A program made the position numbers and the translations under genes. The notes under the pieces are model-generated. The model was not told where the DNA came from. It saw nothing but the letters and a program-made list of their open reading frames with translations, and made no database searches. This document shows positions 33,401 to 52,500 of a stretch of DNA of 61,312 nt, piece after piece (positions within the stretch are counted from its first letter, which is position 1; each line of letters starts with the position of its first letter). Source of the stretch: a virus; the IMG/VR virus record IMGVR_UViG_3300025093_000022, positions 1 through 61,312 of that record. One strand, given 5' to 3'.

Positions 33401-33503
33401 CGATAATACTACAGGTACTTTTATCATGAAACTAAAAGATGGTAGAGTCATTACTAAAAAGGGTGATGAAATTACTGAAATTAAACCTGACAGTAAAGGA
33501 TAA
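30420..33503 (+). CDS. Cargo/ejection-type virion protein, 1027 aa
   Basis: No enzyme motif. It has a basic N-terminus (PKKKSKAASTKAQKF), Gly-rich hydrophobic segments (GKGAGKVAANLLLPGVGGALM, about 165-190) that could touch membrane, and four spaced Gly-Gly motifs (FAGGGKLF, AYGGTMK, AYGGSLD, ACGGKMK). Around residue 600, GPSHDGGGIDVDASGVP...EVEGGE is a phrase seen in Bacteroidota phage virion proteins. A Gln-rich helical C-terminus follows. Placed at the start of the giant cargo block, it is probably stored in the head or tail and ejected with the DNA. Confidence 0.6.
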   Translation: MPKKKSKAASTKAQKFTDHQVKPRHGVRLNEDGSKSSHLMRREYVKDRGWVAFPTLYQDQNGEWLDLGNQYGDDWEPILDYATNTGEVYDFGEDIDAAINFADKGSWKQQFAGGGKLFGSGKIGDAFKLYGDYALSTVGLTDVIGDDAYRNQGMADASRVAENFGKGAGKVAANLLLPGVGGALMNTAQNTLGNIDGEDSERARVEQMRANPEAWGKYAGTIDQMSGAIDPLAQGASLAGEVGSVAAGNFMQHGNVLGDLSGMKNSFGQGLFGKSMSTTVPSGITGNIPMGNIMTKSPVNLINTGQSVLDANQGQSLLGPDPFANEIAVPGLAYGGTMKNKKYANGGPIKMGEQVTPGSARHKEILELEKQNQAYQDRIAQLAPMIEKYGDPQTYTSEQISAMSPAFDPSTVPSGSSILGFNVNPNEETMGESPFFAFAPESGKAEQAYNFFTAPTQPDAVPEYDLIEDDIDMSISPEKVFSPIQGEVFSHASGNPVTRDIGYTYGYEGQKPESITTVNPYTREQMFGANDSFTSGFMNQDFGSLPGMQGVPMDNVMTNDQLREQAIQNEIARRGGRTALAYGGSLDQLPDGGKFIEYQGPSHDGGGIDVDASGVPTAASGVAEVEGGETLHDNGIENYIFSDRLVVNPGDKKKKTFADLSKKINNKYKNTDEDPIAQNTRKLELENLKVQQENLKQMMSGGTEDDFACGGKMKHAVGGGLGIDPMSEKVYGNLNTALAGYNPLLPPSGIDNALSMLSASPMDRLQATTNQFDVDSSLAANLADKGEYFDKRQRSGKLESGDVMPQNQANGLPQDTINPLGYLASNVGNIYDLAQASKETPKNQFGRMTPETIDLEAQRTELKNQAATSRAIARENARNAPSAGGAMTNRVIANALINSGLGSQLSQSYMTEANQNAAIKNQAKQINLQTQIQEKLADQQDLAMRKSTISQAMHNIGMNTQGYARDLKSAKVGNINNKMWFDMVKEGKYVDYAFDNTTGTFIMKLKDGRVITKKGDEITEIKPDSKG

Positions 33504-33529: not shown

Positions 33530-36238
33530 ATGGCACTTAATAGATATTTTCGTAGAGGTCAATCTCAATATGCATCACAGTATGTACCATTGAAGATGCC
33601 TTTTCAATTAATGCAACAAAATCTAGCACAGAAAGATGCTCAGATTGATTCATTTAAAGCAGGTTTAAATATAGACCCACAAGTTACTGGAGAGTCTTCT
33701 CTTAATATGGGTAGATATGGTAAAGGATATTATTCAGATGATAGTACCATTTCAACATATGTACAAAACTCTGAAGATCTCTTATTAAGAGATAGAGAGA
33801 ACTCTCAAAAGTCAGCACAAAATTTACAAGGACAAGTAGACGCTATGTTATCTGATGACTTTATTATGAAGGCTGCATCTGGAGAAATTGCTGATGGTAT
33901 TATTAAATTAAATAGAGATTTAAAATTACATCAACAAAAAAATGCTGCTTACGAAGAAAGAAAAAAAGCTTTTACAGACATTTACAGTACGTTAGCTAAC
34001 AATAAAGATTGGGAAAAAGATCCTACTTTGAGATTTGCTTTAGATGAAGAAATAAGAAAAGCTGCTAATGACCCAACTGGTCAATATATTCCTAAGAATG
34101 TTGGTGTTGGAGAATACTTTGATAGAACAGCTTATATGTTACCTAAAGTTAATATGATTAAAGATAGTGGTAGTAAATCATACAATTTAAATGATCCTGA
34201 TTTAATTCAATGGTCTGAGTGGCATGGTGTTCCAGCTAGTAAGTATGCTGCATTTGTTAAAGATCTAATGGCTGATGAAGGTTCAGAACTTTATGCTGAT
34301 GTACAAAGAGAACTTAATGCAATGGTTCAAGCTGGACATTTAAAGTCAGGAGAAGATATGCAAAAAGCTAAAGCTAGTATTGAAAGAGGCTTAATTAAAA
34401 CTGCAGAAAATTTAGCTCATGGTAAATCTGATGAAGGTATATCATACAAACCACAAGATGTTAGAGAGAAAAATGCTGCAGATCAAATCCATACATTATT
34501 ATCTGCAGATAGTGATGTAGTACCAGCTAATACTATGTCAGGTAATGAAGTAAATTCAATTACTGGTAATTTAGGCGAGAAGAAAATTAAATACGAAGAA
34601 GTATTGGCTGACATATTCCCTGAAAGATTTATTGCTGAAAAAGGTGGTTTACAAGGGGCACTACAAGCATTTAAACATGCTCTGCCTGCGGATCTTGAAG
34701 CTTGGGGACTTACTAATATAGGTGGATATAATATTAAAACTATACAAGAAGGATATCGAAATACAAGTAGCGATTATGCTCATTGGAAAGCTCAATCTTT
34801 AGATATAGAAGATAGTTTCAGAACTGATACTGGTTATACAGATGAAACTGAAACTAAATATAATACATTAGAATATATTAAAAACAATCCACAAGAAGCT
34901 ACTAGATTTTTGTCGCAACTTGCTAAATATGAAAGAGGTGAGTTAAATGCTTTTGATAAAAGAAACTTGGAAAATGATCCAAGATTCTCAGAATTTACTT
35001 CACTAAAAACAACAGGTAATAAGGAAGACTCTCAATTTTATGTAGATATGTTATCTATGAACGCTGATGGTAATTTAGTAGGTCAGATTAGAAATGCTAC
35101 AACAACAGTAGATGATTTTTATTCAATTCAAATTAACCCTAAAACAGGAGAACCTATTAGTGATAGAGAGGTGTGGAATCCAAATAAAGTAAAAAATTAC
35201 TTTAATAGTATGGGACAAGACGTTCCGTTAGGATTAGATGTTAATAACCCAGTAGCTGTAAAAAGATATTTAAAAGAACATTCGTTTAAAGGCATCAATG
35301 AAATTTATTCTAAAAAGGAAAGTTATGATGATGCCTATAGTAACAACATTGTACAAACATATCAATCAGGTATAGTTACTCATCCAGGAGTAGTAGTTAA
35401 TTTAGATGATACTGAATTAGGATTTTTATTTAATGAAAATATTTCTAATCCAAATGATTCAGAGGTATACGATCAAAATGGTCAGATAATTAAAAATCCT
35501 AAAGTATCTAGATTTTTACATGCAGTAGTAGCAGAAAATGCTAAAAAAGCTCCAGGTAATTTACCTGTAACTATGACATCAAAAGGTGAGTGGTCTGCTA
35601 GTGGTATATCAACTCAACAAATTATGGGAGGATATGATCCAACTGACGCTGCTTCAATGGAAAAACTAGCTCAAGATTACGAAATGTATATGGGCGAAGA
35701 ATTAGATGGTGATACTGAAGAAAATTTGAAATCATTTATGGAGTCTTCTCAAGGGTTTACTATTAAATTTAAATCTACTTCTCCTAGCTTTAATAATCAA
35801 ATGTTTAATAAGATTACTGAATCTAATAGTCAGAAAGCTATGAATGGCGAGATTACTTCTCAAGATGTTTCAACTGAAGTTTCTATGAATAATAGATCTG
35901 CTATTAAACAATTAGAAAATGAATTGGGGGATGTTATTACTTATAATAATGGAGATACTCAATATAAAACAACAGCTCCAACTAATATAGTTATTAAAGT
36001 ACCTGTATATCAACAAGGTGGGGGATTAGTAGGTGAAAATAAATTTATAGTTACTAAAGTAGAAAGAGCTGAAAATGAAAGAGGAGAACCTATTAAAGAC
36101 TTTAATGGTAGATTTATTTATAACTATTATGTAGATGGTTTAACTGATGAAGATGGAAATCCAAAACCAATTCCAGCAAATACTACAGAAGGGTTTATTA
36201 ATCAAATAAGTAACCCAATACAAACGACACAATTTTAA
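33530..36238 (+). CDS. Cargo/ejection-type virion protein, 902 aa
   Basis: A long, mostly helical protein with a basic start (ALNRYFRRGQSQYASQYVPLKMPFQLM). Acidic and Gln/Asn/Lys-rich helices follow, without Cys clusters or membrane segments. It resembles the internal virion proteins of crAss-like phages by size, composition and location before the giant polymerase gene. Towards the C-terminus it is more beta-like (TNIVIKVPVYQQGGG, FIVTKVERAE). The function is probably structural storage or channel formation during DNA entry. No catalytic motif is visible. Confidence 0.55.
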   Translation: MALNRYFRRGQSQYASQYVPLKMPFQLMQQNLAQKDAQIDSFKAGLNIDPQVTGESSLNMGRYGKGYYSDDSTISTYVQNSEDLLLRDRENSQKSAQNLQGQVDAMLSDDFIMKAASGEIADGIIKLNRDLKLHQQKNAAYEERKKAFTDIYSTLANNKDWEKDPTLRFALDEEIRKAANDPTGQYIPKNVGVGEYFDRTAYMLPKVNMIKDSGSKSYNLNDPDLIQWSEWHGVPASKYAAFVKDLMADEGSELYADVQRELNAMVQAGHLKSGEDMQKAKASIERGLIKTAENLAHGKSDEGISYKPQDVREKNAADQIHTLLSADSDVVPANTMSGNEVNSITGNLGEKKIKYEEVLADIFPERFIAEKGGLQGALQAFKHALPADLEAWGLTNIGGYNIKTIQEGYRNTSSDYAHWKAQSLDIEDSFRTDTGYTDETETKYNTLEYIKNNPQEATRFLSQLAKYERGELNAFDKRNLENDPRFSEFTSLKTTGNKEDSQFYVDMLSMNADGNLVGQIRNATTTVDDFYSIQINPKTGEPISDREVWNPNKVKNYFNSMGQDVPLGLDVNNPVAVKRYLKEHSFKGINEIYSKKESYDDAYSNNIVQTYQSGIVTHPGVVVNLDDTELGFLFNENISNPNDSEVYDQNGQIIKNPKVSRFLHAVVAENAKKAPGNLPVTMTSKGEWSASGISTQQIMGGYDPTDAASMEKLAQDYEMYMGEELDGDTEENLKSFMESSQGFTIKFKSTSPSFNNQMFNKITESNSQKAMNGEITSQDVSTEVSMNNRSAIKQLENELGDVITYNNGDTQYKTTAPTNIVIKVPVYQQGGGLVGENKFIVTKVERAENERGEPIKDFNGRFIYNYYVDGLTDEDGNPKPIPANTTEGFINQISNPIQTTQF

Positions 36239-36247
36239 TCTTTTATT

Positions 36248-39200
36248 ATGCCTAAAGGAGATGATAAATTAAATCCTTTAAACAAGGATATAAAACAGTA
36301 CGATCAAGATTTAAATAGTACTATAGATATTTTTGCCAAACCTTCTGCACCTAAGTATACAGAGGGTATTGATATAAAATTGTCTGAATATGAAGAGGCT
36401 AAAAAAGCTGGAGCTGGTGACCTACTAACCCCAGAATCTTTTCTACAGAATAAAGAAGACTTTCAAAAAATAGCTACTGAGAAAGAAAGGTTATTAAATG
36501 ATAGTCGAGCTAGACAACAATCTTTAGGAGATAAAATAGGTAACGGTTTAGTTAAATTTGGTGGTAGAGTTTTTACATCTATCGCTGGTTCTACCATTGG
36601 TACATTACATGGATTATATGCCTGGGCAAGAGATGGTGAGTTTAAATCATTTTACGACAATGAATTTCAAGATGGTTTAGATGGTATTAATGATTATCTA
36701 TCTGAAGAGTTTCCTCATTATTATACTTCAAATAAAAATGATTGGGAGATCTCTAACTTTATATTTGACAAAGTTTTTGATGGATTAGGTTTCGCTGTAG
36801 GTGCTGTTGGGTCTTCTATGTTAGGAGGCGGAGCTACTAATGCTCTTACTAAGTCATTAGGTTGGTCTAAATACATGAAAGCTGGAGCAGTTAATAAATT
36901 AAATAAAACACTTCAGTCAACTACAGCTTCATCTGATGATGTATTAAAAGCTACAGAAAAATTTACTAGAGATATTAGAAGAATTGATAAAGCTAGTAAA
37001 ATTCCTCATACAATATCTAGTATGACTACTGGTGCTGTTTATGAATCAGGTGTTGAAGCTAGACATACTTTTGATGAGATAAAAGAAGATCTAATTAATT
37101 CATATAAGTTAGAATATGGGAAAGCTCCTACTGGACAACAACTAGAAGAGATAAATAAAATAGCTGGTGAATCTGCTAATGGAGTATTTGCAGCTAACAT
37201 GGCTGTAGTAGGTGGAAGTAATATTCTTCAATTTAGTAGACATTTAGGTTTAGATTTTAGTGATGCTAAAAAACTTTTTACTAATAAACGAATTGCTACA
37301 GAAACCGCTGAAGGCTTTACTAAAAAAGGTAGTTCAACTTTAAGAGGAGTTAAACAAGTATTATCTAAGCCTATTGTAGAGTCACAAGAAGAAATGATAC
37401 AATCAGTTATTTCTGGCACTGGTAAAGATTACGCTAAAAAGAAATATAATAATGACGGTAAAGCAGATTTAACAGATTTATTAAACTCATCCATTAAATC
37501 ATTTAAAAAAACATATTCTTCTAAAGAAGGTTGGGAAGAAGGTTTGATTGGTGCTATTGTTGGTTCTATTGGTGTATATAATGCTAATAAAGTTAAAAAA
37601 GGTTATGAGGGAAATAAACTACCTTCATTAGCTGTTATTGAATCATTTAAAGATTGGAGATCAGACGAAAACTTTAGAAACACTATGGTTGGATTTTTAA
37701 ATGAGACTGATGCTATTTCATCATTAACATCTTCAATTCAGCATATGTTGCAAGATGGTCAATATGAAAAAGCTAAAGAATCTGCTTTAATATTAAATAA
37801 TGTTAAAGCGTATAAAGATACTCAAGATGAACAATTCCATTCTTATGTAACAGCTCGTATTGATGCTGGTATGTCAGATCAAATTTATTCTGATTTAAAT
37901 AAATTAAGAAACATACCTTTAGAAGAGTTCAAAGAGACGTTTAGTATTCCAGCAGAAACTAAATATACTGAAGTAGATAAGTTAAAACAAATTGAATCAT
38001 TTGAGCGTAGGGCTAGAGATATTCAAGAGTCTACTGAATTTATTGAAAAGAATTACCCTAATCAAGAAGAGATTCATGATGCATTAATTTTCAACCATGC
38101 AATGTTGAAAAGAATTTCTGATAGAAAAGACAATATTTCTAGAGAGATTGAAGAGTTAACTGGTAATGCAGCTATTACTTTAAACGTTACAAATAAAGAA
38201 ACAGGAGTAAAAGCTACTGCTAAAGAGATATTTAAAGATGTAGATAAAAAGTATCAAGCTAACAAAAAAGCTTATACTGATTTATATAAAGATTATATTG
38301 ATCTAAGTGAGCGTGAAGATAAGATGTTAACTGAGTTTGTTGCATACACTACTGTACCAGAAGCAGCTAAAGCTTTAATTGACGAACTAGATGAAACCGA
38401 ACAAAAAAATGCGAAAGAGGCAAATAAAGGAAAACGCCAAAAGGAGAAAACAAAAGCTAAAGAGAAACAAGAGGCGAAAGTTGATTCTGCTAAAGCGGTA
38501 GCTAAAGCTGAAGAAGATGTCTTAGTTGAAAATCAAAGCGTAGTTGATGATATAGATGCTGCTCAAAACGAAGAAGAGTATACTATATTAGATCCTAACT
38601 TAAAAGATGCGTTAGAAAATGATAAAGAAGGTCGTCAAAAAATTATAGATGAAGTAAATAAACTTAAAAAAGATGAATCAGGTGTTGATCCTGGAACTCC
38701 AGAGTCAGCAAAGACTAAGCTTAAGAGAGATCAAAAAATAAACAAAAAGAGTGAAGATAGTAAAGTAGCTCCTAAAGATTATACTAAAGATTCAAAAACA
38801 AAAAAGAGTGCAGAAGAAAAAATTGCTAGGGCCAACAGAGGTGAGACAACAGAGGGCTTTGAAAATGAAGAGGTGCAAAAAGAGGCAACAGGCGTATACA
38901 GAGTTGGCAAACGTTTGGTTAATGCGTTCAACGCTATTGCTGTTCGTACCAGAAATTTTATAGACACACCATCAGGTATTAAAGAGTCTACTGATGAAAT
39001 TAAATCAGCAACTAGCCTAAGAATACTTGATCCTAAATTTATTAAAGCTAAAGATAAAGTTGAGATTAAGTTAAACAATGATCCTAATTTTATCTTTTAC
39101 AAACCAGACGGAACAGTTGATCCAGATAAACGAAATGAGATTGGTACTGATAATCAAATCATGGAAATTTATTTTGATGAAGAACTTGTTGGTTACTTAC

Positions 39201-42200
39201 ACGGTACAGATTATATTACTGAAAGAAGAGTTGTTCCTATTGTTGATGGGGCCGATAATATAAATAGAAACATTGAAGAGTTAGCTAAAGCTAGAAAAGA
39301 GATTAGAAAACATCTCCAAGATAACCCATCTTATTCAGTAAAAGTAGTTTCTAAAACTGCTGGTCAAATAAGAGTTAAAGCTAATGAGAAGTATGATGCT
39401 AAGTTAACTGATGTAGTACAAGATGATACTAGACCAGAATTACTTGTTATTAAAGATGGTACTATTTATCATAAAGATCAACCATTAGAAGATTCTCCAC
39501 TAGCAGATAAACTAGTATTTAATCCAGAAGATGTTTACACTTTAGAAGATTCATTTGCTGAAGAGTTTAATGGTGCAACAATGATTGCTGTACCTGGAGC
39601 TAATGGACAATATGTTGTTTCGTTAGTTAGAAATGGTTCTATTCAAGAGGCTGATGCTAAAGTTAAAGATACTGTATTAGAAGTATTAAATGCTTATGTA
39701 GCTAATGATACTGAAGCTTTAGCTGAGTTTGGTTTAGCTGATAGTAAAACAGGCGAAGTATATCCAGAGTTAGTTTCTGAATATATTAATAACTTTATTT
39801 ATACAACATCAGATGTAGATAGTCCACATTATATGTTCTTAGGGTTAAATTCTAAAGGAAACCCTCAAATAAGATTTACACATAAACCTGGGGAAAAACC
39901 AACAATACTTGAAGGTAATACAGAGGCACCAGAATACAAATTTCTTGAAGAGAGAATTGATGGTTCATTAATATCTACTAACCTTAGATCACTTAATGAT
40001 AATGTACAACTTACTTTAACCGGTGGGGAAAAAATATCTTACAAAGATTTCATCTATGATAATCTATATGCAAACTTTGTAGGTGAAAAGATTCCAGGTA
40101 CTAATGTAATGTCTTATACAGACAACCCTATTATACTTTTAGATTTAGGTAATCCATTAGATATGACATCTAAACCTAAAGCTAAAAAGAAAGATAGACC
40201 ATCTGAAGGACCACTATTAGATTCGGCTATTGATAAGAAAAAAGATTCTAAAAAAACAGTATCTAAAGATAACCCACTTCTTAAATCTAACTTTAAAAGA
40301 GGTAAGAAATCTCCAAAGAGAGATTACAATCCAGAAGATTTATTTAAAAGTCTTAATCCAATTGTAGATGCTGCTACAGGTAGTTTAGTAATGTCACAAG
40401 ATACTATTGATATTACTATGTCACTAACTAATACTGTTTACGATATTATTAGTTCAGAAGAAAAGATTTCTGTTAGTGAAGCATTTAAACAATTAGAAGC
40501 CGCACTAGTAGAGTTTAGAGATATGTACGAGAGTCATGGCGATACTGCAGGTGAAAATGCAGTTGAGACAGTTCTTAATAATATGGACTCTTTCAAATTA
40601 TTAGTATCTCAAAAACTTAGAGTTCTTGGTTATAATATTAAAGGTGGTAAAATGTCAGAGATCTTTTTTGAATCTAATAGACAAGAAGCTTTTGACCAAG
40701 CTGAAGAAGAAACTTTATATGGAGATACTCCAGATATTACAAAGTCATTTAATGAAGACGCTATCTTTACAGATAACCCATTAAATAAACTATCTGCTCA
40801 AATCAAAATGAAGTTAGCTACTATTCCAAATGAAGAAGCTAACGTTCTAGGTATGGATAGTTACTATGAGATGGAAACTGTTTACAATGCTTTATTAGAA
40901 ACTTTATCAGATAAACCTGATATGTCTATCAGCCAAATGATAGAAGTTCTTAAATCTAAAGCTGTAGAAAAACCATATCTACTTTATGTTATTAATAACA
41001 TACTAGAAAATCCAGAGATAGATCAAAGTGTTAAATATGCGTTTAACTCTCACTTTAAAATGTCTTACTTAGAGAAAGAGTTAGTTAAAGCTGATAGTGA
41101 AAATGATATAAGAGTAATTGAATCAAATAGAGTTTCACTTACTAATTTAATTTTTGAAACTTGGCTTAATAGAGGTAAACTTCAGAACTTATTAACTGCA
41201 TCTGCAGAAGGAACACAAGTTGTTAATAAAGATTACGTCACTGAAGTAGTTGATCCTTTATGGGAAACAGCTAAAGAAACTAAATCAGTTGAAGATACTC
41301 ACGCTTATTTACAAGCAGTTGGTATAGATATTTCTTTAGATGCTTTAAGAGAGATGGAAAGTAATTCTAAAAATTTAGAAGGGTTTAAAAGAACTACTTG
41401 GAAACAATTGTTTACTCATAAAAATAGAGGTGTCTTTAGAAAGATTAGAGAGGCATTAGATGCTGAATTACCAGACAATGTTCATCCGTTTAAAAATGAA
41501 GGTTATATTAAAAAGATTGCTGGAGTTCAAGCTAAATACGCTAGTGACATAGCAACCAAATCTTATCGTGATGTAGAAGGTAAATCAAACTATAGTTATG
41601 TATTACCAACTTGGATTACTGATAGATTTAGTAGACTTAAAAATAATAAAGGTCTTATTAATAAATTACAAAAGATTCCTTTTCTAGAAAGATCTTGGTA
41701 TTTAACAATGCTAAAGACAGATGAAAAGTTTAGAGAAGTTTTTGATTTAAAAGTAATAGACTCTATTAAGTTTAAAGGAAGAGATGGTCAAAAGTTTAAT
41801 AAGCTTACTAAAAAAGAACAACTAATTGCTCAGATTGGTTTCTTTGCAAATAGTAATCAAGGTAAACCTGGTAAAAGAATTGGTAAGTTCTTTGTTTCTA
41901 AATCAGATAAGAGTAACGTACATGTACTTACAGCTCTTAGACATAACACAACTAGTACTCCAGAACAGATCAGAGATAACAAATGGTCTGAAGAAGATAA
42001 AAGACAAATACTAGATAATATTATTGGTAGTGAGTATTCTAGAATTAAAGACGCTCAAGAGAGAAGAGATGCTGGTGTAAACTTTGGTGACATTAAAGGA
42101 TATAATCCATTTATATTTTACACATTCCCGGAGTTAAATGATCTAGATTCTATTAAAGATGAAGATGGTAATCTATTAGACTTTGAAGATGCTAGAGATA

Positions 42201-45200
42201 CTATGTGGAAAGCTATTTCTCAACCTCAAGAAGACGGAACTCCATCTACATTAAAACAAATACATACTTCAACAAAAGCTGAACTTGAGAAATACGGTAT
42301 CATTGAAAATAACAAACTAAAATATGTAGATAGAGTTTATAAAGGACAAAATCGTACAGGTAATGTAGACTACTTTATAAGAGATTATACTCTTAACTAC
42401 ATGATAGCTACGTTTAACTATTCTCAATTATTTCAAAGTGATGTAGCGTTTGCTGCTAAAAAGAATAAAGGAGTAGATGTTGCTTATGCTAATATGTTTA
42501 AACGTCTAGCTAAAGATATGGCTCCGGCTGTAAGAAGTGCTACATCTGTATCTGCAGATTATAATCATTATAATCAAATAGTATTAGCAGATGCTTTTAA
42601 CTCATCTAATAATATAGATCAGCTTAGAGAAATGTTCCCAGATTTAGTTCCTGATTATTCAGGTATAGAGGGAACAGATGCTCAAGAGGTAACACTATTA
42701 TCTGAACATATTAATGTTATGTATCATCATGGTAAAATTACTGATGAGCAATATAATAAGTTTTATCCTAAAGCTGTTAAAGGTGAGTATTACACACCTG
42801 CTGAACTTGAAGAACTTATTGATATAATTAAAAATGCACACAAACCAGTATATGTTACTAATAAATATATGCCGGAATATGGTGCAGAAGTTCCAGTTTA
42901 TTTAAAATCATCATCTTTCCCATTAGTACCACAATTAGTTGAAGGTACTGCTTTTGAAACATTAGAGAGATTGATGAGAACTAACACTAGAAAGATTGGT
43001 AATAAAAATATGCCAATGCCTATTCATAGAGCTATCTTTGAATCAGGAGCTAAACTAGGAGCTTTCAAAACAATTGATGCTTGGAATAAAGCCACTAATC
43101 CAGAAGGAGACTTTATTACTTATAAAGATAAAGCTATTACTGATGGTACTTTTAATGAAGAGGCTATCAAAGAAGCTCTTAAAAATAATAACTACTTAAC
43201 ATTAGATAGAGCTGGTTTTGGTATTCAGCAAGATGTTCCATTTGATGAATCTAAAGATAAAATTCCAGAAGGTTCACAGTTAATGAAACTTATTCAAACT
43301 GGTATTGAAGATCCTACTGTAGTTGAAGAGTTTAATCAATTACATATTGATATAACAGAAAAAGCTTTTCAAAATCTATTAGATGAATTAGGTGCTACAG
43401 ATAATGGAGATGGTACTTATTCTGGATTAGATCTTAAAAAATTAAGAACACTTCTTAAAGAAGAACTCATTGATAGAGGTTCTTATACAGAAAATGATTT
43501 AGTAGCTTTAGATATTCAAGAAGATGGTAAAGGTAATTTACAATTTTCTACACCACTATGGGCTACTCCTAAATCAGTGCAGTTTGAATCATTACTTAAC
43601 TCTATAATTAATAAGAGAGTTATTAAACAAAAGATGCCTGGTAAATCTTATGTACTAGCTACAGAAGAAGGTTGGCAAGGGTTTACTTCTGATATTGAAA
43701 GAATTACTAGCGGTCTTAAAGGAACTAAATATAATCCTAAAACTGGACTTAAACCACAACGTATTGGTTATCTTAATGAAGAGACTAATGAAAAACAAGA
43801 GAGAGAATATATTTTAAACCTCATTAAAAAGGAAAAAGATATTTCTAAACTTTCGGAGGAAAAAATTTCTGAATTAATAAAAACTAAAGCTAAAAAATTA
43901 GGTTTTAAAGAAGTTGTATTCCCTGCTCAAGTATTAATGACTAAAGGTAAGTGGAATCAAAAACAAATGGTTGGGTATCGTATTCCAACTCAGGGATTAA
44001 ATTCAATGTCTGCTATGGAGGTAGTAGGTTACTTGCCTGATTATATGGCTGACCTTATTATAGCTCCAAAAGATTTCGTTACTCAAATGGGATCTGACTT
44101 TGATATTGATAAACTATATGTACATAGATGGCACGAAACTAGAGCTGGTAGAAAAGTTTCTAAACAATCAGTACAAACTGGTTGGGAATATTATTTAGAG
44201 TCTAGAGAGAAACAAGAGTTTCAAGCTGAAAGTCAAGTTAAACAATTAGCTAAAGTAACAGCGTTCCTGAACAATACTTTTGATAAAGTAGATCTTGAAG
44301 TTTCTGAAGAAGATGTTAGAGAGATATATGATAAAGTTGTTACTAAAACTTTAACTGAAGAAGATTATAAAGCTCTCCATGAGAAAAAACAAAAACAAAA
44401 TCGTATCATGGATATTTATTGGGAAACACTTACCAATAAAAATAATCTTAAAGATGTATTAAAGCCGTTAGACTTTGGTAATCTGCCAGAGGTTGTTAAG
44501 AATATCAAAGCTTCTAAACAACACCACCCTCTATCGCCTATCAGACAAATTAATAACTATCAAAATGGAAATGCCGGTAAGTTTGGGGTATCAGTTACCT
44601 CACTAGCTTCTACCACTAATGCACTTTTACAGGTAGTTAAAAATGTTATTACTTTAAAAACATTTACTGGTAAAGCATATACTCCAGTTAAGTTTAAGTT
44701 TAAAATTAATGGTGAGGTTATAGAAGTAAGTGATCTTAATGGGGAGATGACTCTAGATGGTTCTATGAAAAAGATTGATGTAATATCTGCATTTCAGTCT
44801 GCGTCAGTAGATAATATTAAAGAGCTACTTATTAAAATCATTAATTATAATAAGCATACACATGATGCATTTTTAACATTATCTTATTTAGGTTTAGATG
44901 ATAAGTATATCTCATATTTATTAGCTCAACCTATTATTAAAAAGTATGTTGAAAATAGAGAAGCTTTATCTGGAGGCTTTACAGATATTAATGTTTCTGA
45001 AATTGAAGATGAAGCTTACCGAATGACATTTGAAGAGTTTGGTACTACTAATCCAGTTACTAACTGGAATAAAGCGTTTAGTGAAAAAGCATTAATTACT
45101 GCTTTAAATAATCCTGAAAATTTAGAAAATCAACAAATACTATTAGAGAAGTTTAAAAGACTTTCTGAATCAGGTAAAGAGATTAATGATTTAATCAGAG

Positions 45201-48200
45201 CTTTACAACCTGGTACATCTGGTGTTGGTAAAAATAGAATATCTGCTAATCTTAAACAAGCTAAAGTTGAGGACTTGTTAAATAGTCAAACAATTACTGG
45301 TATAGATGAAATGTTTGGTGATGTTGAAAGATTACAAAACGGAGAGATTAACTTAACTCCTAAAACTATTGCAGGTCAAGGTTACGAGATACTTAAAAGA
45401 TCTAATAACTTATTTAATTCATTATTCTCAATCAATAGTGTAGCTATGAAATTAGCTCAAGCTGTTGCTAATAATAATGATGTTAATGTTAAAGGATTTA
45501 CTGAAAAACAATTAACTCAATTAAGTAAGTTTGTTAAGAGTTATGTATTCAGCGATAAATCTAATATGTATAGTGATGAAACTGCTGTAGCATATAGAAA
45601 TAGATTAATGTTAGGTGAAAACTCTTTAGCTCATAGAGTAGAGAAGTTTAAACAATCTAATCCTAGAAATCCATTATCTCTAGCCATTAGAACGAACATC
45701 AGTAAAATTGAAGGAGTTCCTTCGACTGTTTATTATAATGCATCATCTGCTGAAAGAGGTGATGAGATGAAATACACTATTGCTATTTTACAATTATTAA
45801 ATAGTGAAGTAGCTGATGAAGTAGAGTTAGGAGAAGATCTTATTGCTTATACTTATTTAACAGGTGGTAATCAAGATGCTAAGTCTTTGTTAAAACTTTT
45901 ACCTAATACTTATTTACACTTGGTAAATTTCGGTAAAGATGTGGAAAGTTCTTCGCAGAAGATCGTGAAGGGGGAGGTTGAGATGTACCCTGTAATGAAA
46001 CAGTTGTTTCAACATTTTCCTTACCTGGCTAAGAGTGTGAGTTTAGACGAAGCTGGTACGTTAGAAGAAAATGGTAAACTTATTGTAAATACAAAACAAC
46101 CTAGATTCATTAGTATATCTTTAGATAGAGAAAGTAAACCAGTTGTTTATGAAAAAACTACAGAAAAATCAATAGATGGTATAGTTTACAAACCACTTAA
46201 TCATTTAGGTACTTATGAGTATAGTGAAACTGAATATAATGCTAAAGATCTTTCATCAGTATTAGCTGAAAATAATGTTGGTGAAGATGTTGTTGTTGTA
46301 GAAAGCCAAACTCCACCTAAAAAAGATGAGTCTATTTTAGATCCTAATGTAGCTAACGTAGCTAAGAAAGTAAACCAAACTGCTACTAGATATAGATTAG
46401 GAGAGAAAAATACTAAAGCTGTACTAGATGCTATATCTAATGCTGGTATAAGTGAAGAGAATAAAGCATTAGCTAAATCATTAGCTAGTGCAATTGGTAA
46501 TGTTCCTATTATTCAAACTGAATTACCGCCATATGCTGATGGTATTTATCAAGAAGAGAACAATGCTATTTTAATTAACAATAATCTAAAAGATCCAGTT
46601 GAGTTTGAGAGAGTAGTTTTGCACGAAGCTATGCATGCAGTACTAGCTAATGTAATTAAAAACCCAACCACTAAACAACAGAAAGAGATTATTGATTCGT
46701 TAGAAGCAGTGTTAAAAGTTGCTCAAAAAAATGAATCAGCTTTTAGTTTTAAAAATGGACTTAAAGATTTAGACGAGTTTATTTCTGAATTAATGACTGA
46801 TGTAACATTCCAAAGAGAACTAGCTACATTAGACTTTAATAAAGATATAAACTTACTACAAAGAATCTGGAAATTAATTTCAGATATCTTATCAGAAGTA
46901 ACTGGTGATGTAGTAACTCAAAGTTCTATTGAAGCAGTTGGTGAGCTAATTAAATCTACCTCTCCAACAGTAGTATCTGTTAGTGAATCTACTAATGAGT
47001 TAATAAAAGAGGCTGTTAGTTATAAAGATGTTCCAATTGTTGATTCTACTGATATAATTAATGCGGAAGGTAAAAAGGGTGCTGCTCAATACGATAGAAC
47101 TAATAATAGAATTTTAGTTGATAGATCTTTACTTAAACAAAAGTTTTCAGAACAAGCTTGGACTAATCCAAGAGATTTGATAGAGTCTATTGATGGAGTT
47201 GAAGTAACTTCTACTATGACACCAATGATGGCAGATCAGTTTTTATCTTATAAACAATTTGAAGATTTTGTTATTGCTCATGAATTTGAACATTCTAAAT
47301 ACACTAGAGAAATGCATGAGGCATTAACTTCAGATACCACTAAAGGTCAATATGAAGATGAGATTAATCGTAGAGCATTAGAGTCTTTAGGAATACCGTT
47401 TAAACCAATGCCTAAAAAGGTAACAAAAACTGAAGCTCCTGTAGAAAGCAGTCCTATTGTTTTGAATAAAGAACAACAAGCTGCTGTAGATAATACTGTA
47501 GACTTTATTAAAAATGGTAATCCAAACGAATACTATGTTATAGAGGGTAAAGCTGGTACTGGTAAAACTACTATTGCTGAAAAGATAGCTAAAGAGTTTC
47601 CAGGACAAATTATTAAGTTAGCTGCTTTATCACATAAAGCTAAAGGAGTAATTAGTAAAAAGTTTTCTAAAGCTAAAATACCAGCTACTTCACATAGTAT
47701 TGCTGGTTTATTAGGAATGACATTAGATTTATCTTCAGGTAAATTTAAAGTTGATAGAAACAGATATACACCACCTCCAATAGGTGAAGCAGATATTATA
47801 ATAATTGATGAAGCATCTATGGTTAATGAAGAGGCTTTAGAAATGATTATGCAAGGTAAATCAGCTAAAGCTAAAGTTGTTTTCTTGGGAGATATAGGAC
47901 AATTAAAACCTATTAGATCTGTTAGTAATCCATATTATAAAACAAAGAAACATTTACTAGATAAAAAATCTCCTGTATTTGAATCTACTAATAAGTCTAT
48001 GCTGACTGAAAGAGTTAGACAAGGAGAAGAATCACCTATCTTACCTTATGCTGATAACTATTGGGAAAATTCACAAATTGAAAAACCAGTATTAAATCCA
48101 ACATCACATAAAGAATCTATCTATAGTGATAAAGGTAATTTAGTATTTGCTAATGAATTTAGTGAAATTGAAAAAGAAGTTCTATCTAAATTTAAAGAGG

Positions 48201-49528
48201 CAGTTAAAACTAATAATCCTAATTTAATTAAGATAGTAGCTTATAGAAATAATGCTAAAGCTAGTTACAATAAAAAAGTACATGACGCTGTATTTGGAAA
48301 AGATGCTGCTCAATTTAATGAGGGAGAGATTATTATCTTTAATGATAACTATAAAGATTTGAAAATTCCTAATTCAACTGAAGCCGTAGTTAGTTCTGTG
48401 GATAATAAAGTACACAAACACAATAGAAGTGATATAAGATATAGATATATATCTGTTAAATTTGGAAATAGAACTGAAGTTATTCCAGTTGTAATATCTG
48501 AAGACAAACAAAAATATAAAGATTACTTAAATGTCTTAGCCAAAGAAAAGAGATGGCCTTTATTTTATAAAATTAAAGAAAACTTTGCCGATATTGATTA
48601 CGCATATGCTATTACATCTCATAAATCACAAGGTTCAACTTATGAAACTGTAATAGTAGATGCTAAAGATATCAAAGGAGTTTCTAAAATTGATAATGCT
48701 GAAAAATCAGAGAGTATTTATACTGCATTAACTAGAGCTAGTAATACAGCAATAGTTCTTGAAGGTGGTGCAAAAGCAACTGCAGGTACTACATTATACT
48801 CTGAAGAGTCATCTACTCCTCCAGACTTAGGTAAGGTACCAATTTTTGATCCTGAAACTGGAACACAACTTTTTTCACCTAGTAGAAAAGCAGCTCCTGC
48901 TGTAGCTAAAGTGTTTAAAGATAATTCAGAACTTAGTATGTTAGGAACTGCTACTCAATACCAAGATTATTTAGCAACGGTATTTCCTAGTAGTAAAGTT
49001 CCTGGAATTGTTTATCATGGAACTATAAATAAAAACATACCTTCAGAAGGATTTATTGGTAAAACTATGTTCTTCACAAAAGACCATAAAACAGCCGCTA
49101 GATATGCTGCTCAAAAAGATTCAGCTAAGTATGATATTTATTTAGAAGATTTCCAAAATGGTAAAATCTCTGAAAATGATTTATCTCCATATGTAGTACC
49201 AGCATTAGTTAATATTACTAATCCATTTATAGAAACATCTTCTAAAACATATTTAGAAAATGCTAAAACTATAAATAGAATTTCAGATATTAATGATGGT
49301 TTTGTAGCTAGTTCTGTAAAAGATACTAAAGGTATTGAAGATCAGATAGCTGTTTTTGATAGTGCTAATATTCATATATTAGGATCACAAGCTGACGTAA
49401 ATATGTTTAGAGAATATCTACAAAATGAAAACCTTCTAAATGAGAGTTTTGATAACCCATCAAAAAATAGTATTTTTAAAGAATCTTCTACTAAAGATGT
49501 AGATGAACATAAAAAACAATGTAAGTAA
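36248..49528 (+). CDS. Giant polyvalent virion protein: virion RNA polymerase, two HExxH motifs, SF1 helicase, ART-like domain (4426 aa)
   Basis: One uninterrupted 13.3-kb frame. Order: hydrophobic Gly-rich segments at about 100-125, 175-205, 300-320 and 430-455; a charged linker at 710-880; a beta-rich region at 890-1300; a basic linker near 1310-1370; the crAss-like virion RNA polymerase, with RIPTQGLNSMSAMEVV then SDFDIDK (catalytic Asp2617, 2619, 2621), the single-chain two-barrel type related to QDE-1; HEAMH at 3459-3463; HEFEH at 3678-3682; an SF1 helicase with Walker A GKAGTGKTT (3767) and DEAS (3854), then SHKSQGST and YTALTRA; and an ADP-ribosyltransferase-like end with YHGT (4256-4259). 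The polymerase would transcribe early genes after ejection. The fused activities are inferred from motifs. It couples to the next gene by TAATG. Confidence 0.85.
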   Translation: MPKGDDKLNPLNKDIKQYDQDLNSTIDIFAKPSAPKYTEGIDIKLSEYEEAKKAGAGDLLTPESFLQNKEDFQKIATEKERLLNDSRARQQSLGDKIGNGLVKFGGRVFTSIAGSTIGTLHGLYAWARDGEFKSFYDNEFQDGLDGINDYLSEEFPHYYTSNKNDWEISNFIFDKVFDGLGFAVGAVGSSMLGGGATNALTKSLGWSKYMKAGAVNKLNKTLQSTTASSDDVLKATEKFTRDIRRIDKASKIPHTISSMTTGAVYESGVEARHTFDEIKEDLINSYKLEYGKAPTGQQLEEINKIAGESANGVFAANMAVVGGSNILQFSRHLGLDFSDAKKLFTNKRIATETAEGFTKKGSSTLRGVKQVLSKPIVESQEEMIQSVISGTGKDYAKKKYNNDGKADLTDLLNSSIKSFKKTYSSKEGWEEGLIGAIVGSIGVYNANKVKKGYEGNKLPSLAVIESFKDWRSDENFRNTMVGFLNETDAISSLTSSIQHMLQDGQYEKAKESALILNNVKAYKDTQDEQFHSYVTARIDAGMSDQIYSDLNKLRNIPLEEFKETFSIPAETKYTEVDKLKQIESFERRARDIQESTEFIEKNYPNQEEIHDALIFNHAMLKRISDRKDNISREIEELTGNAAITLNVTNKETGVKATAKEIFKDVDKKYQANKKAYTDLYKDYIDLSEREDKMLTEFVAYTTVPEAAKALIDELDETEQKNAKEANKGKRQKEKTKAKEKQEAKVDSAKAVAKAEEDVLVENQSVVDDIDAAQNEEEYTILDPNLKDALENDKEGRQKIIDEVNKLKKDESGVDPGTPESAKTKLKRDQKINKKSEDSKVAPKDYTKDSKTKKSAEEKIARANRGETTEGFENEEVQKEATGVYRVGKRLVNAFNAIAVRTRNFIDTPSGIKESTDEIKSATSLRILDPKFIKAKDKVEIKLNNDPNFIFYKPDGTVDPDKRNEIGTDNQIMEIYFDEELVGYLHGTDYITERRVVPIVDGADNINRNIEELAKARKEIRKHLQDNPSYSVKVVSKTAGQIRVKANEKYDAKLTDVVQDDTRPELLVIKDGTIYHKDQPLEDSPLADKLVFNPEDVYTLEDSFAEEFNGATMIAVPGANGQYVVSLVRNGSIQEADAKVKDTVLEVLNAYVANDTEALAEFGLADSKTGEVYPELVSEYINNFIYTTSDVDSPHYMFLGLNSKGNPQIRFTHKPGEKPTILEGNTEAPEYKFLEERIDGSLISTNLRSLNDNVQLTLTGGEKISYKDFIYDNLYANFVGEKIPGTNVMSYTDNPIILLDLGNPLDMTSKPKAKKKDRPSEGPLLDSAIDKKKDSKKTVSKDNPLLKSNFKRGKKSPKRDYNPEDLFKSLNPIVDAATGSLVMSQDTIDITMSLTNTVYDIISSEEKISVSEAFKQLEAALVEFRDMYESHGDTAGENAVETVLNNMDSFKLLVSQKLRVLGYNIKGGKMSEIFFESNRQEAFDQAEEETLYGDTPDITKSFNEDAIFTDNPLNKLSAQIKMKLATIPNEEANVLGMDSYYEMETVYNALLETLSDKPDMSISQMIEVLKSKAVEKPYLLYVINNILENPEIDQSVKYAFNSHFKMSYLEKELVKADSENDIRVIESNRVSLTNLIFETWLNRGKLQNLLTASAEGTQVVNKDYVTEVVDPLWETAKETKSVEDTHAYLQAVGIDISLDALREMESNSKNLEGFKRTTWKQLFTHKNRGVFRKIREALDAELPDNVHPFKNEGYIKKIAGVQAKYASDIATKSYRDVEGKSNYSYVLPTWITDRFSRLKNNKGLINKLQKIPFLERSWYLTMLKTDEKFREVFDLKVIDSIKFKGRDGQKFNKLTKKEQLIAQIGFFANSNQGKPGKRIGKFFVSKSDKSNVHVLTALRHNTTSTPEQIRDNKWSEEDKRQILDNIIGSEYSRIKDAQERRDAGVNFGDIKGYNPFIFYTFPELNDLDSIKDEDGNLLDFEDARDTMWKAISQPQEDGTPSTLKQIHTSTKAELEKYGIIENNKLKYVDRVYKGQNRTGNVDYFIRDYTLNYMIATFNYSQLFQSDVAFAAKKNKGVDVAYANMFKRLAKDMAPAVRSATSVSADYNHYNQIVLADAFNSSNNIDQLREMFPDLVPDYSGIEGTDAQEVTLLSEHINVMYHHGKITDEQYNKFYPKAVKGEYYTPAELEELIDIIKNAHKPVYVTNKYMPEYGAEVPVYLKSSSFPLVPQLVEGTAFETLERLMRTNTRKIGNKNMPMPIHRAIFESGAKLGAFKTIDAWNKATNPEGDFITYKDKAITDGTFNEEAIKEALKNNNYLTLDRAGFGIQQDVPFDESKDKIPEGSQLMKLIQTGIEDPTVVEEFNQLHIDITEKAFQNLLDELGATDNGDGTYSGLDLKKLRTLLKEELIDRGSYTENDLVALDIQEDGKGNLQFSTPLWATPKSVQFESLLNSIINKRVIKQKMPGKSYVLATEEGWQGFTSDIERITSGLKGTKYNPKTGLKPQRIGYLNEETNEKQEREYILNLIKKEKDISKLSEEKISELIKTKAKKLGFKEVVFPAQVLMTKGKWNQKQMVGYRIPTQGLNSMSAMEVVGYLPDYMADLIIAPKDFVTQMGSDFDIDKLYVHRWHETRAGRKVSKQSVQTGWEYYLESREKQEFQAESQVKQLAKVTAFLNNTFDKVDLEVSEEDVREIYDKVVTKTLTEEDYKALHEKKQKQNRIMDIYWETLTNKNNLKDVLKPLDFGNLPEVVKNIKASKQHHPLSPIRQINNYQNGNAGKFGVSVTSLASTTNALLQVVKNVITLKTFTGKAYTPVKFKFKINGEVIEVSDLNGEMTLDGSMKKIDVISAFQSASVDNIKELLIKIINYNKHTHDAFLTLSYLGLDDKYISYLLAQPIIKKYVENREALSGGFTDINVSEIEDEAYRMTFEEFGTTNPVTNWNKAFSEKALITALNNPENLENQQILLEKFKRLSESGKEINDLIRALQPGTSGVGKNRISANLKQAKVEDLLNSQTITGIDEMFGDVERLQNGEINLTPKTIAGQGYEILKRSNNLFNSLFSINSVAMKLAQAVANNNDVNVKGFTEKQLTQLSKFVKSYVFSDKSNMYSDETAVAYRNRLMLGENSLAHRVEKFKQSNPRNPLSLAIRTNISKIEGVPSTVYYNASSAERGDEMKYTIAILQLLNSEVADEVELGEDLIAYTYLTGGNQDAKSLLKLLPNTYLHLVNFGKDVESSSQKIVKGEVEMYPVMKQLFQHFPYLAKSVSLDEAGTLEENGKLIVNTKQPRFISISLDRESKPVVYEKTTEKSIDGIVYKPLNHLGTYEYSETEYNAKDLSSVLAENNVGEDVVVVESQTPPKKDESILDPNVANVAKKVNQTATRYRLGEKNTKAVLDAISNAGISEENKALAKSLASAIGNVPIIQTELPPYADGIYQEENNAILINNNLKDPVEFERVVLHEAMHAVLANVIKNPTTKQQKEIIDSLEAVLKVAQKNESAFSFKNGLKDLDEFISELMTDVTFQRELATLDFNKDINLLQRIWKLISDILSEVTGDVVTQSSIEAVGELIKSTSPTVVSVSESTNELIKEAVSYKDVPIVDSTDIINAEGKKGAAQYDRTNNRILVDRSLLKQKFSEQAWTNPRDLIESIDGVEVTSTMTPMMADQFLSYKQFEDFVIAHEFEHSKYTREMHEALTSDTTKGQYEDEINRRALESLGIPFKPMPKKVTKTEAPVESSPIVLNKEQQAAVDNTVDFIKNGNPNEYYVIEGKAGTGKTTIAEKIAKEFPGQIIKLAALSHKAKGVISKKFSKAKIPATSHSIAGLLGMTLDLSSGKFKVDRNRYTPPPIGEADIIIIDEASMVNEEALEMIMQGKSAKAKVVFLGDIGQLKPIRSVSNPYYKTKKHLLDKKSPVFESTNKSMLTERVRQGEESPILPYADNYWENSQIEKPVLNPTSHKESIYSDKGNLVFANEFSEIEKEVLSKFKEAVKTNNPNLIKIVAYRNNAKASYNKKVHDAVFGKDAAQFNEGEIIIFNDNYKDLKIPNSTEAVVSSVDNKVHKHNRSDIRYRYISVKFGNRTEVIPVVISEDKQKYKDYLNVLAKEKRWPLFYKIKENFADIDYAYAITSHKSQGSTYETVIVDAKDIKGVSKIDNAEKSESIYTALTRASNTAIVLEGGAKATAGTTLYSEESSTPPDLGKVPIFDPETGTQLFSPSRKAAPAVAKVFKDNSELSMLGTATQYQDYLATVFPSSKVPGIVYHGTINKNIPSEGFIGKTMFFTKDHKTAARYAAQKDSAKYDIYLEDFQNGKISENDLSPYVVPALVNITNPFIETSSKTYLENAKTINRISDINDGFVASSVKDTKGIEDQIAVFDSANIHILGSQADVNMFREYLQNENLLNESFDNPSKNSIFKESSTKDVDEHKKQCK

Positions 49529-52500
49529 TGGCGAAGTGTCCTAATAAAAATAGTAGTTTATATAAACGTTTATCAAACCAATTTTCTGAAGATAATATCT
49601 TTAGAATTTGGGATGCTATAACTACACCAGAGTTTGATGCTTGGTATGGTAATAACACTAGAGATAAAGATGGTATGCCTTTTATTAATAAGTATTTTCA
49701 AATACAAAATGATAAAGGTCAAGTAGGTAATTTATTACAAGATACAGTCAAACTAACATCTGTTACTGAAGTAGAAAAACTATTATCTGCTCAAAAGACC
49801 GAAGGCATATCTTTATATAAAGGTAGATACTATGTATCTAAAAATAAAAAGATGCAAGGGGAAAATATGGTTAAATTACTTAACCGTTATTATCCTGGTC
49901 TTTTAGAGAGAACCTCTTATTTCACTGCATCACAAGCTATTGGTGTTAGTGATCCGTCTCTACCTACGACTTACCTTACAATTAATAATGTATTTACTGC
50001 TCAAGGTAGAATACTTTATTCTCCATCTAGAAGTACTTTATTAGAGGCTCCTGAATCTGAAACAGGTGAAATGGAATATCTAATAAATAGATTAGATGAA
50101 TATAAAGAGAGAGTTCATGACCAATTAATAAATGCTAAAGAAGAAGCGAAACAAACTAAAGATTACCGTAAAGTAGAAAGTTTAACAAATAAACAAGATG
50201 AATTAGAACTAGCTATTGATGAATTAAAAATAGATCAAACAGTTCAAAATATATCTAAAATTGCTAATATTAATTTAGATTATGTAGAAAAACTTTTAGA
50301 GAAGAAAGACACTATTAGTATTACAGAGCTTAATGAAATTAATGATATCTTAGGTTTCTATGAACATCTAGATTCTACTGAAAAATCTAAACATCCTGTA
50401 TCTTTTTTAACTAAATCTGATTTTGTTAAGAGAAACACTGTTAAGATAGATGCTCAAGGTAATGAGACTATTGAAAAAGATTATCCAGAATCTACTAAAA
50501 AAATACAAGGTATAGCCTTAACAGCCAGAAATCTTAGAGAAGATTACAACGTTCTTATTAAAGAAGCAGTTACTAAGTATTATAATGAAACATACGAGAA
50601 AAATAAAACTATTGAAGAATTATTTGAAAATATAAAAGATATTACAGCTTCAGCTAAAATGACTAGAGATGCTGCTAGTGTTAATAACTCTTTACTTAGT
50701 TTATTACACTCTGTTAATAATGATGCATCTAGAGTAGCTAATGCTAAAACCACCCAAGATCAAAAAGAAAGAGAAGAAATGCTTGAGACATTAGAAAAAA
50801 GTTCACCTTCTTCTTTGTATAAAAGATTGGGTAGAAAAAAGTTTATGCAAATGTTTTGGCAAAAAGATGATAAAGGTAATAATACTGGTGGATTAATTAA
50901 TGAATATTCTCATAAATATAAAAAAGTAAAGGGTAGATTGTTTAACAAGATGTTTTATTCTGATTCTGTGGAAGAGGTTAAAGCTGCTAAAGAAGAATTT
51001 AATGCTACTCACGAATTTGTTAATTATTTCTTAGTAGAAAATAAAGATGGAACTATAAATGAAGAGGCTACTGCTATTGCTAAAGAGAAAGAGTTTAATA
51101 GATTAGCTGAAATTTTTGATAAAGATAGAGTCAAAGAAATTATAGATGAAATGCACATTGAGTTTAAAAACTTTAGGACTAGACGAGAAGATGCTTATGC
51201 TGAAATAGACTCATTAGAAATTACAAATAATGCTAAAATTGCAAAAAAAGAGCGTTGGTATTATCGTAACCATCCTACTATAAGTATTAATGACATTAGA
51301 GATGGAAATGTTCGTATAGATAAATTTGGAAATATGATTAAATTTAATTCTGAATTTGTTAGAGCTATTCCTTTAAAAATAAATAGAGGTGGAGAGCAAA
51401 CTAATTTTTATGATAGTGCTTTTGAAGCAATAAAAAAAGATGCTACAGCTTATGAGTATTATAAATACGTAAATGGTACTATTAAAAAACTTTTAGCCTT
51501 CTATCCAAAATCACATCTAGATGCAAAAGGTATACATGAAGGATTTATACCAACTCTCAAAAAAAGCTTATTACAACAATTTATGCAAGACGGTATGGGG
51601 TTATCTTTGTCCAAAATGCATGAAACTGCTAGAAGATGGTTTAGTATAAAAACTTATTCTAAATCTTACGATCATATAGACGTATCAACTGGTCAAGTAA
51701 AAGATTCATTAAATATTAGAATGTTATCTCCAAATTATAAATATGTAGATGGTGGAGAAGTAATAGATACTTCAGATATTGTAACTGATTTAGATGAAAT
51801 TTTAAATCAATTTATACCTGTTACTAATATGTATAGATATAAATCTAAATTAGAAGCTACTCATAATATGATTTTAAACTCCATTGACCAAATGCAAGGA
51901 GTACAACAAACACCAACTGGAGTTAATCTTACTGGGGGCTTAGAAGGAGCTGATATTGTAGACAATTTAAACCATTTAAAAGAGTTAGCTAGATTTCTTA
52001 ATGAAATTTATTATGAAAAACAAGAAAAAGACGTTGCTAGTAAACAAAAAGTTTTAAGTAAAGAGGAGAAAAAACAAAAAGATAATTTAGAAGAAAAAAT
52101 AGATGAACTTAAAAAGAAATTAATAGACGAAAGAGATACATTAACTCAAGAACAACAAGAGGGTATTAGAAATTCTATTGAGGGGATAAAAAGAAAATTA
52201 TCCGATTTAGGTACAAATGTTTCTAGTACCAAATCAATAAAATCAATCTTAAAATATTTTCAATTAGTTTCACAAGGTTGGAATTTGAGTTCAGCTAGTA
52301 TAGAGCTTGTTTATGGATTTGCATCTAATAATATGCATGCAGCTGGTGGAATTGAATATACAACTAAACAAATATCAGCTGCTTATAAAATAGCAATGGC
52401 GGCTACTATGCCTGGAGCTAACACTAAAACTATTAGAAAGTTCCTTTCATTAATTGAAAAGTTTGATGTTATTGGTGAGGTTGCTGAAAACGAAAGAAAT

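Follow-up and report, generated by a model that had tools for sequence, protein, structure and literature searches.

The window, a linear viral record of 61,312 bp, has no exact direct repeat of at least 30 bases at its ends, and the record is therefore probably a fragment. Its TerL, portal and MCP match phrog_6681, phrog_6547 and phrog_11589 with E-values of 1e-109 to 1e-130, and these matches, like the homologies of the cargo genes, fit a crAss-type phage. TerL, portal and MCP are followed by tail genes and then by the genes for a muzzle/stabilisation protein, a C1 homologue, a probable C2, a giant protein and a 1337-aa protein (Table 1), so that the giant lies behind the tail and cargo genes, where a Crassvirales virion RNAP is expected. 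Its reading frame has 4426 codons up to a TAA, none of them a stop, which upholds the earlier description of an uninterrupted frame of 13.3 kb, and the 4700-aa protein of IMG/VR contig L004 aligns with it along most of the chain. That this is a real gene and no chance frame is confirmed by contig L003, which matches residues 1-3240 at 47% identity. In this close relative, an apparent frameshift (L003 13350-13720), either real or a sequencing error, splits the giant between the RNAP and the zincin into products of 3203 and 311 aa. A pattern search of viral contigs with the whole protein gave no match.

Table 1. Coordinates of cargo genes, domains and cysteine codons in the window
Feature	Position	Strand	Basis or remark
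Muzzle/stabilisation protein	25651-30372		homologous to phi14:2 g071
Cargo protein C1 homologue (crAss_CARG1)	30420..33503	+	PF25725, 8e-10
Probable cargo protein C2, zero Cys	33530..36238	+	identity from position alone
Giant cargo protein, 4426 aa	36248..49528	+	cargo modules 1 and 2 fused, C-terminal cassette added
N-terminal region like crAss001 gp47 (virion RNAP-associated cargo protein)	36401..37693	+	tblastn, hmmsearch
RNA polymerase region	42338..45946	+	homologous to phi14:2 gp66 (6vr4)
DFDID catalytic motif, residues 2617-2621	44096..44110	+	within GSDFDIDK, 2615-2622
Zincin domain 1, residues 3430-3541 (HEAMH 3459-3463, E3510/F3511)	46535..46870	+	invariant residues, profiles
Second HExxH segment, zincin candidate, residues 3578-3713 (HEFEH 3678-3682, EINRRALE 3705-3712)	46979..47386	+	motif
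SF1B Dda/RecD2-like helicase, residues 3735-4175	47450..48772	+	profile matches, motifs
ART-PolyVal-like domain, residues 4240-4383 (YHGT 4256, RYA 4285-4287, EDQIAVFD 4364)	48965..49396	+	PF18760
Conserved C-terminal tail, ending DVDEHKKQCK	49430..49525	+	same type in L003, L004, L011, L078 and phi14:2 gp66
Sole Cys codon of giant, residue 4425 of 4426	49520..49522	+	sequence
Module 3 cargo protein, 1337 aa	49528..53541	+	position of phi14:2 gp65 / crAss001 gp49
Sole Cys codon of module 3 protein, residue 4 (MAKC)	49537..49539	+	sequence

Residues 83-603 of the giant match crAss001 gp47 (3e-29 by tblastn, with a match also by hmmsearch). Gly-rich hydrophobic segments are present in the N-terminal part, as the first-pass annotation had reported, but the membrane passage that it ascribed to them finds little support, the Kyte-Doolittle peak being just 1.25 against a usual transmembrane threshold of about 1.6. 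Residues 2039-3085 are homologous to phi14:2 gp66 (6vr4_A, E=1e-29 by phmmer) and include the DxDxD metal motif of the Crassvirales-type virion RNAP. The polymerase matches 6vr4 and none of the N4 chains, and is thus not an N4-like (T7-like single-subunit) enzyme. A tblastn search with the RNAP region matched 132 records, most of them crAss-like. The phi14:2 enzyme is packaged in virions and is active as an RNAP (PMC10136315), and phi14:2 gp65-gp67 are annotated as virion proteins by MS. Given this annotation, the gp66 match with its DFDID motif, the gp47 match and the C1 neighbour, the sequence identifies the giant almost certainly as a crAss-type cargo polymerase. In two relatives, cr116_1 (L097 11119-21984) and cr108_1 (L099 9235-20825), the RNAP gene is split at the DxDxD motif, with a 215-aa ORF between the parts in cr116_1, and these interruptions are likely introns.

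There are exactly two HExxH motifs in the giant, and the earlier proposal that both are protease-like holds for the first. H3459, E3460, H3463 and E3510 (of an EF pair) are invariant in 21 sequences, as in zincin metallopeptidases, and the domain matches phrog_1233 (3e-6) and phrog_2206 (virion RNA polymerase; 3e-5). In the PDB, its profile finds the ejection proteins 9sfn_G (2e-8) and tetrameric gp48 (8vb2_A; 2e-7), with marginal values (0.04-0.06) for the N4 virion RNAP, consistent with a likely but weak relationship to the N4 zincin. The second segment matched no family and had no homologue among the phages and viral contigs searched. Its alignment to the zincin 1 edge strand is weak (hhalign probability 12.6) and its AlphaFold model, made without homologues, has a pLDDT of 41, so that beyond the motif there is little fold support for a second zincin. 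Zincins are present in 47 of the 79 RNAP ORFs from viral contigs. A zincin in the cargo block was known before, since the existing annotation of Carjivirus gp45 gives it as a fusion to a zincin protease. One zincin superfamily beside the unrelated injected polymerases of N4 and crAss-like phages, and in ejection proteins, points to a general role in injected cargo. The zincin 1 family also occurs in proteins of 2000-4000 aa in which a crAss RNAP was not detected (L014-L077); the three that were scanned carry LPD38 or ART-PolyVal, and the group probably belongs to other phages, as polyvalent proteins that are injected.

Downstream, the helicase has a Walker A motif (GKAGTGKT, 3767), a Walker B motif (IIIDEAS, 3851) and the C-terminal motifs SHKSQGS (4124) and YTALTRA (4158) of an SF1B Dda/RecD2-like enzyme. 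It matches the Dda-like phrog_325 at 1.9e-79 and Pfam AAA_30 and UvrD_C_2, with a match to RecD2 (1e-21) that falls under that profile's cutoff. A Dda-like helicase is found in the same ORF in 11 of the 79 RNAP ORFs from viral contigs. The region that follows matches ART-PolyVal (PF18760) at 1.5e-4 with 23 bits, below the curated cutoff of 31.2 bits, and is for this reason named only ART-like; its AlphaFold model, again made without homologues, has a pLDDT of 33. A homologue (5e-4) occurs in crAss phage cr10_1, in the ORF after the giant and beside zincin-like segments. This unannotated cr10_1 ORF (L079 26368-29985) starts MKIICPN and has one ART-like and two zincin-like segments. The combination of a second HExxH with an ART-like domain was seen only in the window's giant. 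The L011 giant ends directly after its zincin, and the layouts of L004, L011 and phi14:2 indicate that accessory domains occupy a variable slot between the zincin and the conserved tail.

The earlier claim of a single chain carrying RNA polymerase, helicase, protease-like and ART-like domains is thus borne out as a fusion, through the 6vr4 and Dda matches, with the ART assignment falling short of its curated cutoff. Its size, which had been thought exceptional, is not: RNAP ORFs in named crAss-like phages range from 4070 to 4946 aa (Fpv3 4287, FPSV-S29 4419, cr10_1 4460, cr56_1 4461, cr118_1 4946), metagenomic ORFs reach 5209 aa, or 5647 aa in one that is open at its 5′-end, and such proteins are reviewed as reaching ~6000 aa (PMC10136315). 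With comparable or larger relatives, size was rejected as a novelty. Like the giant, Fpv3 gp32 and its FPSV-S29 counterpart are single ORFs with an RNAP, then an HExxH, and one penultimate cysteine, and the next protein starts MAC, but helicase and ART were not detected in them. L004 shares the RNAP, zincin, Dda-like helicase and KKQC tail, with a following protein that begins MAKICPNKN, and lacks the second HExxH and the ART. In phi14:2, gp67-gp66-gp65 have the homologous DFDID RNAP, the same cargo position, a zincin (in gp65) and facing-end cysteines at both breaks; these are three genes rather than two, and a helicase, second HExxH and ART were not found in them by the profiles used.

With RNAP, zincin, helicase and ART-like domain in one chain beside virion genes, the giant is best read, as had been suggested, as a polyvalent packaged protein, a reading supported by its gp47-like N-terminus, its position in the cargo block, the crAss_CARG1 neighbour and the ejection-protein zincin. 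By analogy with its homologues, it would be packaged and transferred into the host. Polyvalent proteins as described in the available text of Iyer et al. 2017 (PMC5512222) likewise combine many enzymatic domains around a zincin hub, with ARTs and a late-gene neighbourhood; the RNAPs in that text are N4-type, fused to zincins and at times to ARTs, whereas a crAss-type RNAP or Dda-like SF1B helicase is not named there. The coliphage N4 virion RNAP (gp50, 3500 aa) is also an injected, cysteine-depleted polymerase followed by a zincin, but it is a T7-like single chain without a helicase. The N4-type and crAss-type polymerases are unrelated, yet their extensions are alike. RNAP plus zincin is common and a helicase recurs; the surprise lies in the cysteines at the facing ends of successive cargo proteins.

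From the composition of the other proteins in the window, about 35 cysteines would be expected in the giant and about 10.5 in the module 3 protein. Each has one, in the giant at the penultimate residue, a position unremarked in the first-pass annotation, and in module 3 at residue 4; the N-terminal CPNKN motif of module 3 is common to L003, L004 and L011. Cysteine depletion and the placement of the remaining residues at facing ends are evident from the sequences of named phages as well. In phi14:2, gp67 has one cysteine (the last residue), gp66 two (residues 3 and 2179 of 2180) and gp65 one (residue 3). In crAss001, they are at residue 2339 of 2341 in gp47, at 5, 1334 and 2404 of 2412 in gp50 and at 5 in gp49. 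The three-part pattern recurs, in some cases with extra internal cysteines, in DAC17, cr128_1, cr106_1, cr116_1 and Dulem virus 41, and it persists in crAss001 and the first four of these with the gp47-like gene on the opposite strand. Where gp47 and RNAP are fused (Fpv3, FPSV-S29, cr56_1, cr52_1, cr1_1, cr4_1, cr10_1, cr109_1, cr118_1 and cr108_1), the cysteines are only at the RNAP/gp49 break, and where RNAP and gp49 are fused (Carjivirus, crAss002, cr3_1, cr110_1, cr127_1, cr271_1 and Rudgehvirus), only at the gp47/RNAP break. In all, 24 named genomes agree with this rule, two of them (crAss002 and cr110_1) given an internal MSC start. The annotated starts of crAss002_33 (L092 13624) and cr110_1 gp40 (L095 14017) seem too early, and an internal MSC fits all their relatives. 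The cysteine of the upstream protein is 7-10 residues from the C-terminal end in crAss001, cr128_1 and cr10_1, and the giants of some Suoliviridae and TAG-recoded phages have 5-25 cysteines.

The rule was then applied to 80 RNAP loci from viral contigs fetched after it had been formed, leaving out L100, L101 and L108, whose contigs had already been used. They contain 43 breaks on the downstream side of the RNAP, which fall into 33 clusters when grouped at 60% core identity. An upstream cysteine lies in the last 4 residues in 41 of the 43, where uniform placement predicts 0.175, and a downstream cysteine in the first 7 residues in all 43; in giants with a single cysteine it is terminal in 12 of 12. 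The two exceptions, L172 and L179, are both TAG-recoded giants. In a control of 245 ORFs, used in place of 14 neighbour pairs, a cysteine falls within the last 4 residues of 5.3% and within the first 7 of 3.7%. In L133, L143, L154 and L163, small inserted genes stand between the RNAP and the next module, whose N-terminus still carries a cysteine. At the upstream break, cysteines at the RNAP N-terminus and at the C-terminus of the preceding protein are both present in 24 cases and both absent in 16, with 1 and 0 discordant (Fisher 1.6e-10), the single discordant case being an unrelated ORF 1.2 kb away. Among outer C-termini, 1 of 54 has a cysteine, and that one is near the end of its locus. Four fused ORFs (L103, L117, L120 and L126; 4799, 4933, 5005 and 5065 aa) have none, as do two overlapping frames in L102, and the rule is broken by a 577-aa ORF fragment (L199). 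A second set of data not seen before, taken from genome assemblies, added 15 breaks that agree. These counts take clusters as roughly independent, and shared ancestry inflates their nominal significance; the persistence of the pattern across wide divergence argues for constraint. A small-sample accident was rejected on the two unseen sets. A contig of 4.8 Mb from Chitinophaga sp. YR573 (L195) has a cysteine-free crAss-type RNAP ORF of 5485 aa, which suggests an integrated crAss-like prophage.

These features are best explained, with reasonable confidence, by a modular crAss cargo chain with head-to-tail cysteine joins. The giant would represent two of three large cargo modules in one chain, a gp47-like leader with RNAP plus the zincin, helicase and ART-like domains, packaged in the head and driven unfolded through the tail, N-terminus first, to refold in the host. 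There, the polymerase would start early transcription, the helicase may assist on the DNA as it enters, and host proteins may be modified by the ART. End-to-end joining would keep the delivery of successive cargo proteins ordered and complete, fused modules being joined by the peptide bond and separate genes by a disulfide from the near-C-terminal cysteine of the upstream protein to the near-N-terminal cysteine of the downstream protein, here C4425 of the giant to C4 of the 1337-aa protein, with release in the reducing host cytoplasm. Judged from the sequences, such a link between facing cargo ends is probable. Extended to Crassvirales, we infer, with some caution but as the better bet, that up to three cargo proteins of very large size travel as one covalent string, linked C- to N-terminus by single disulfides that are interchangeable in evolution with fusion and released by redox after passage through the tail. 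Against a disulfide stand the reducing cytoplasm of infected cells and the anaerobic life of gut hosts, as do the giants with 5-25 cysteines and the exceptions L172, L179 and L199. In crAss001, MS places gp47, gp49 and gp50 among the virion cargo proteins, the cargo is thought to exit partly unfolded, with an N-to-C direction proposed for gp45, and other inter-subunit disulfides are present in the virion (PMC10172136). The literature searched, to which the crAss RNAP structure paper did not belong, contained no description of, or biochemical evidence for, a disulfide linking cargo proteins.

The pattern could also be that of an ordinary crAss-type polyvalent vRNAP that lost its cysteines solely because of the oxidising periplasm, the terminal ones being tolerated or having another use, for instance in tagging the protein for packaging or in linking homodimers. 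N4-like vRNAPs are cysteine-free, which has been ascribed to their route through the tail and across an oxidising periplasm (PMC2784036, PMC3915230, PMC3715699), N4 gp50 having 0 cysteines in 3500 residues, and a terminal tag would likewise occupy a flexible end. Tolerance, however, fails to explain cysteines at both facing ends of nearly all breaks and none at outer ends or in several fused forms, and nothing about a tag or a homodimer would tie it to a neighbouring module. As this N4-type account leaves the facing-end cysteines unexplained, we consider it unlikely, and a head-to-tail disulfide is the simplest account. Nor do the cysteines at breaks appear to be non-functional fossils of gene splitting, for example through loss of an intein, or side products of start and stop sequences that overlap. 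Introns and inteins are abundant in crAss-like phages (PMC7886860) and adjacent genes in many genomes overlap or nearly meet (here 49520-49540), but the pattern is kept where modules are on opposite strands and across the inserted genes of the four loci above, and it outlasts the divergence of most of the sequence, making such an origin very improbable.

Proteolytic maturation had also been thought plausible, with the giant a polyprotein whose own zincin cuts polymerase, helicase and ART parts from each other during assembly. A zincin with an intact HExxH...E does sit between polymerase and helicase, and PMC5512222 reports that P1 DdrB undergoes processing ahead of its packaging and proposes autoprocessing for polyvalent proteins. 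The same paper has the N4 vRNAP, with a comparable zincin, packaged uncut, and for this reason cutting before packaging is doubtful. In L011 the zincin sits at the very C-terminus, and in phi14:2 it belongs to another module, gp65, which leaves nothing, or different parts, for a cut to release. In the giant, cleavage would detach the C-terminal cysteine from the modules that lead the chain. The conservation of that far C-terminal cysteine is most easily understood if the chain is intact at packaging, and the polyprotein reading is, in our view, improbable.

Moving proteins of several hundred kDa down a narrow tail, in correct order and number, is a problem that crAss-like phages share with N4. 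A disulfide between cargo modules, if it exists, would explain the free interchange of gene fusion and fission and the near-absence of cysteine in cargo proteins, and the joined ends predicted by the cysteine rule are directly and cheaply testable in cultured crAss001, DAC15/17, phi14:2 and Fpv3. Single terminal cysteines are also found in neighbouring cargo proteins, at residue 856 of 857 in Carjivirus gp47 (L091 2697-5270) and at residue 5 in Fpv3 gp30 (L007 3075-4871), which suggests that the hooked series may exceed three modules in some phages.
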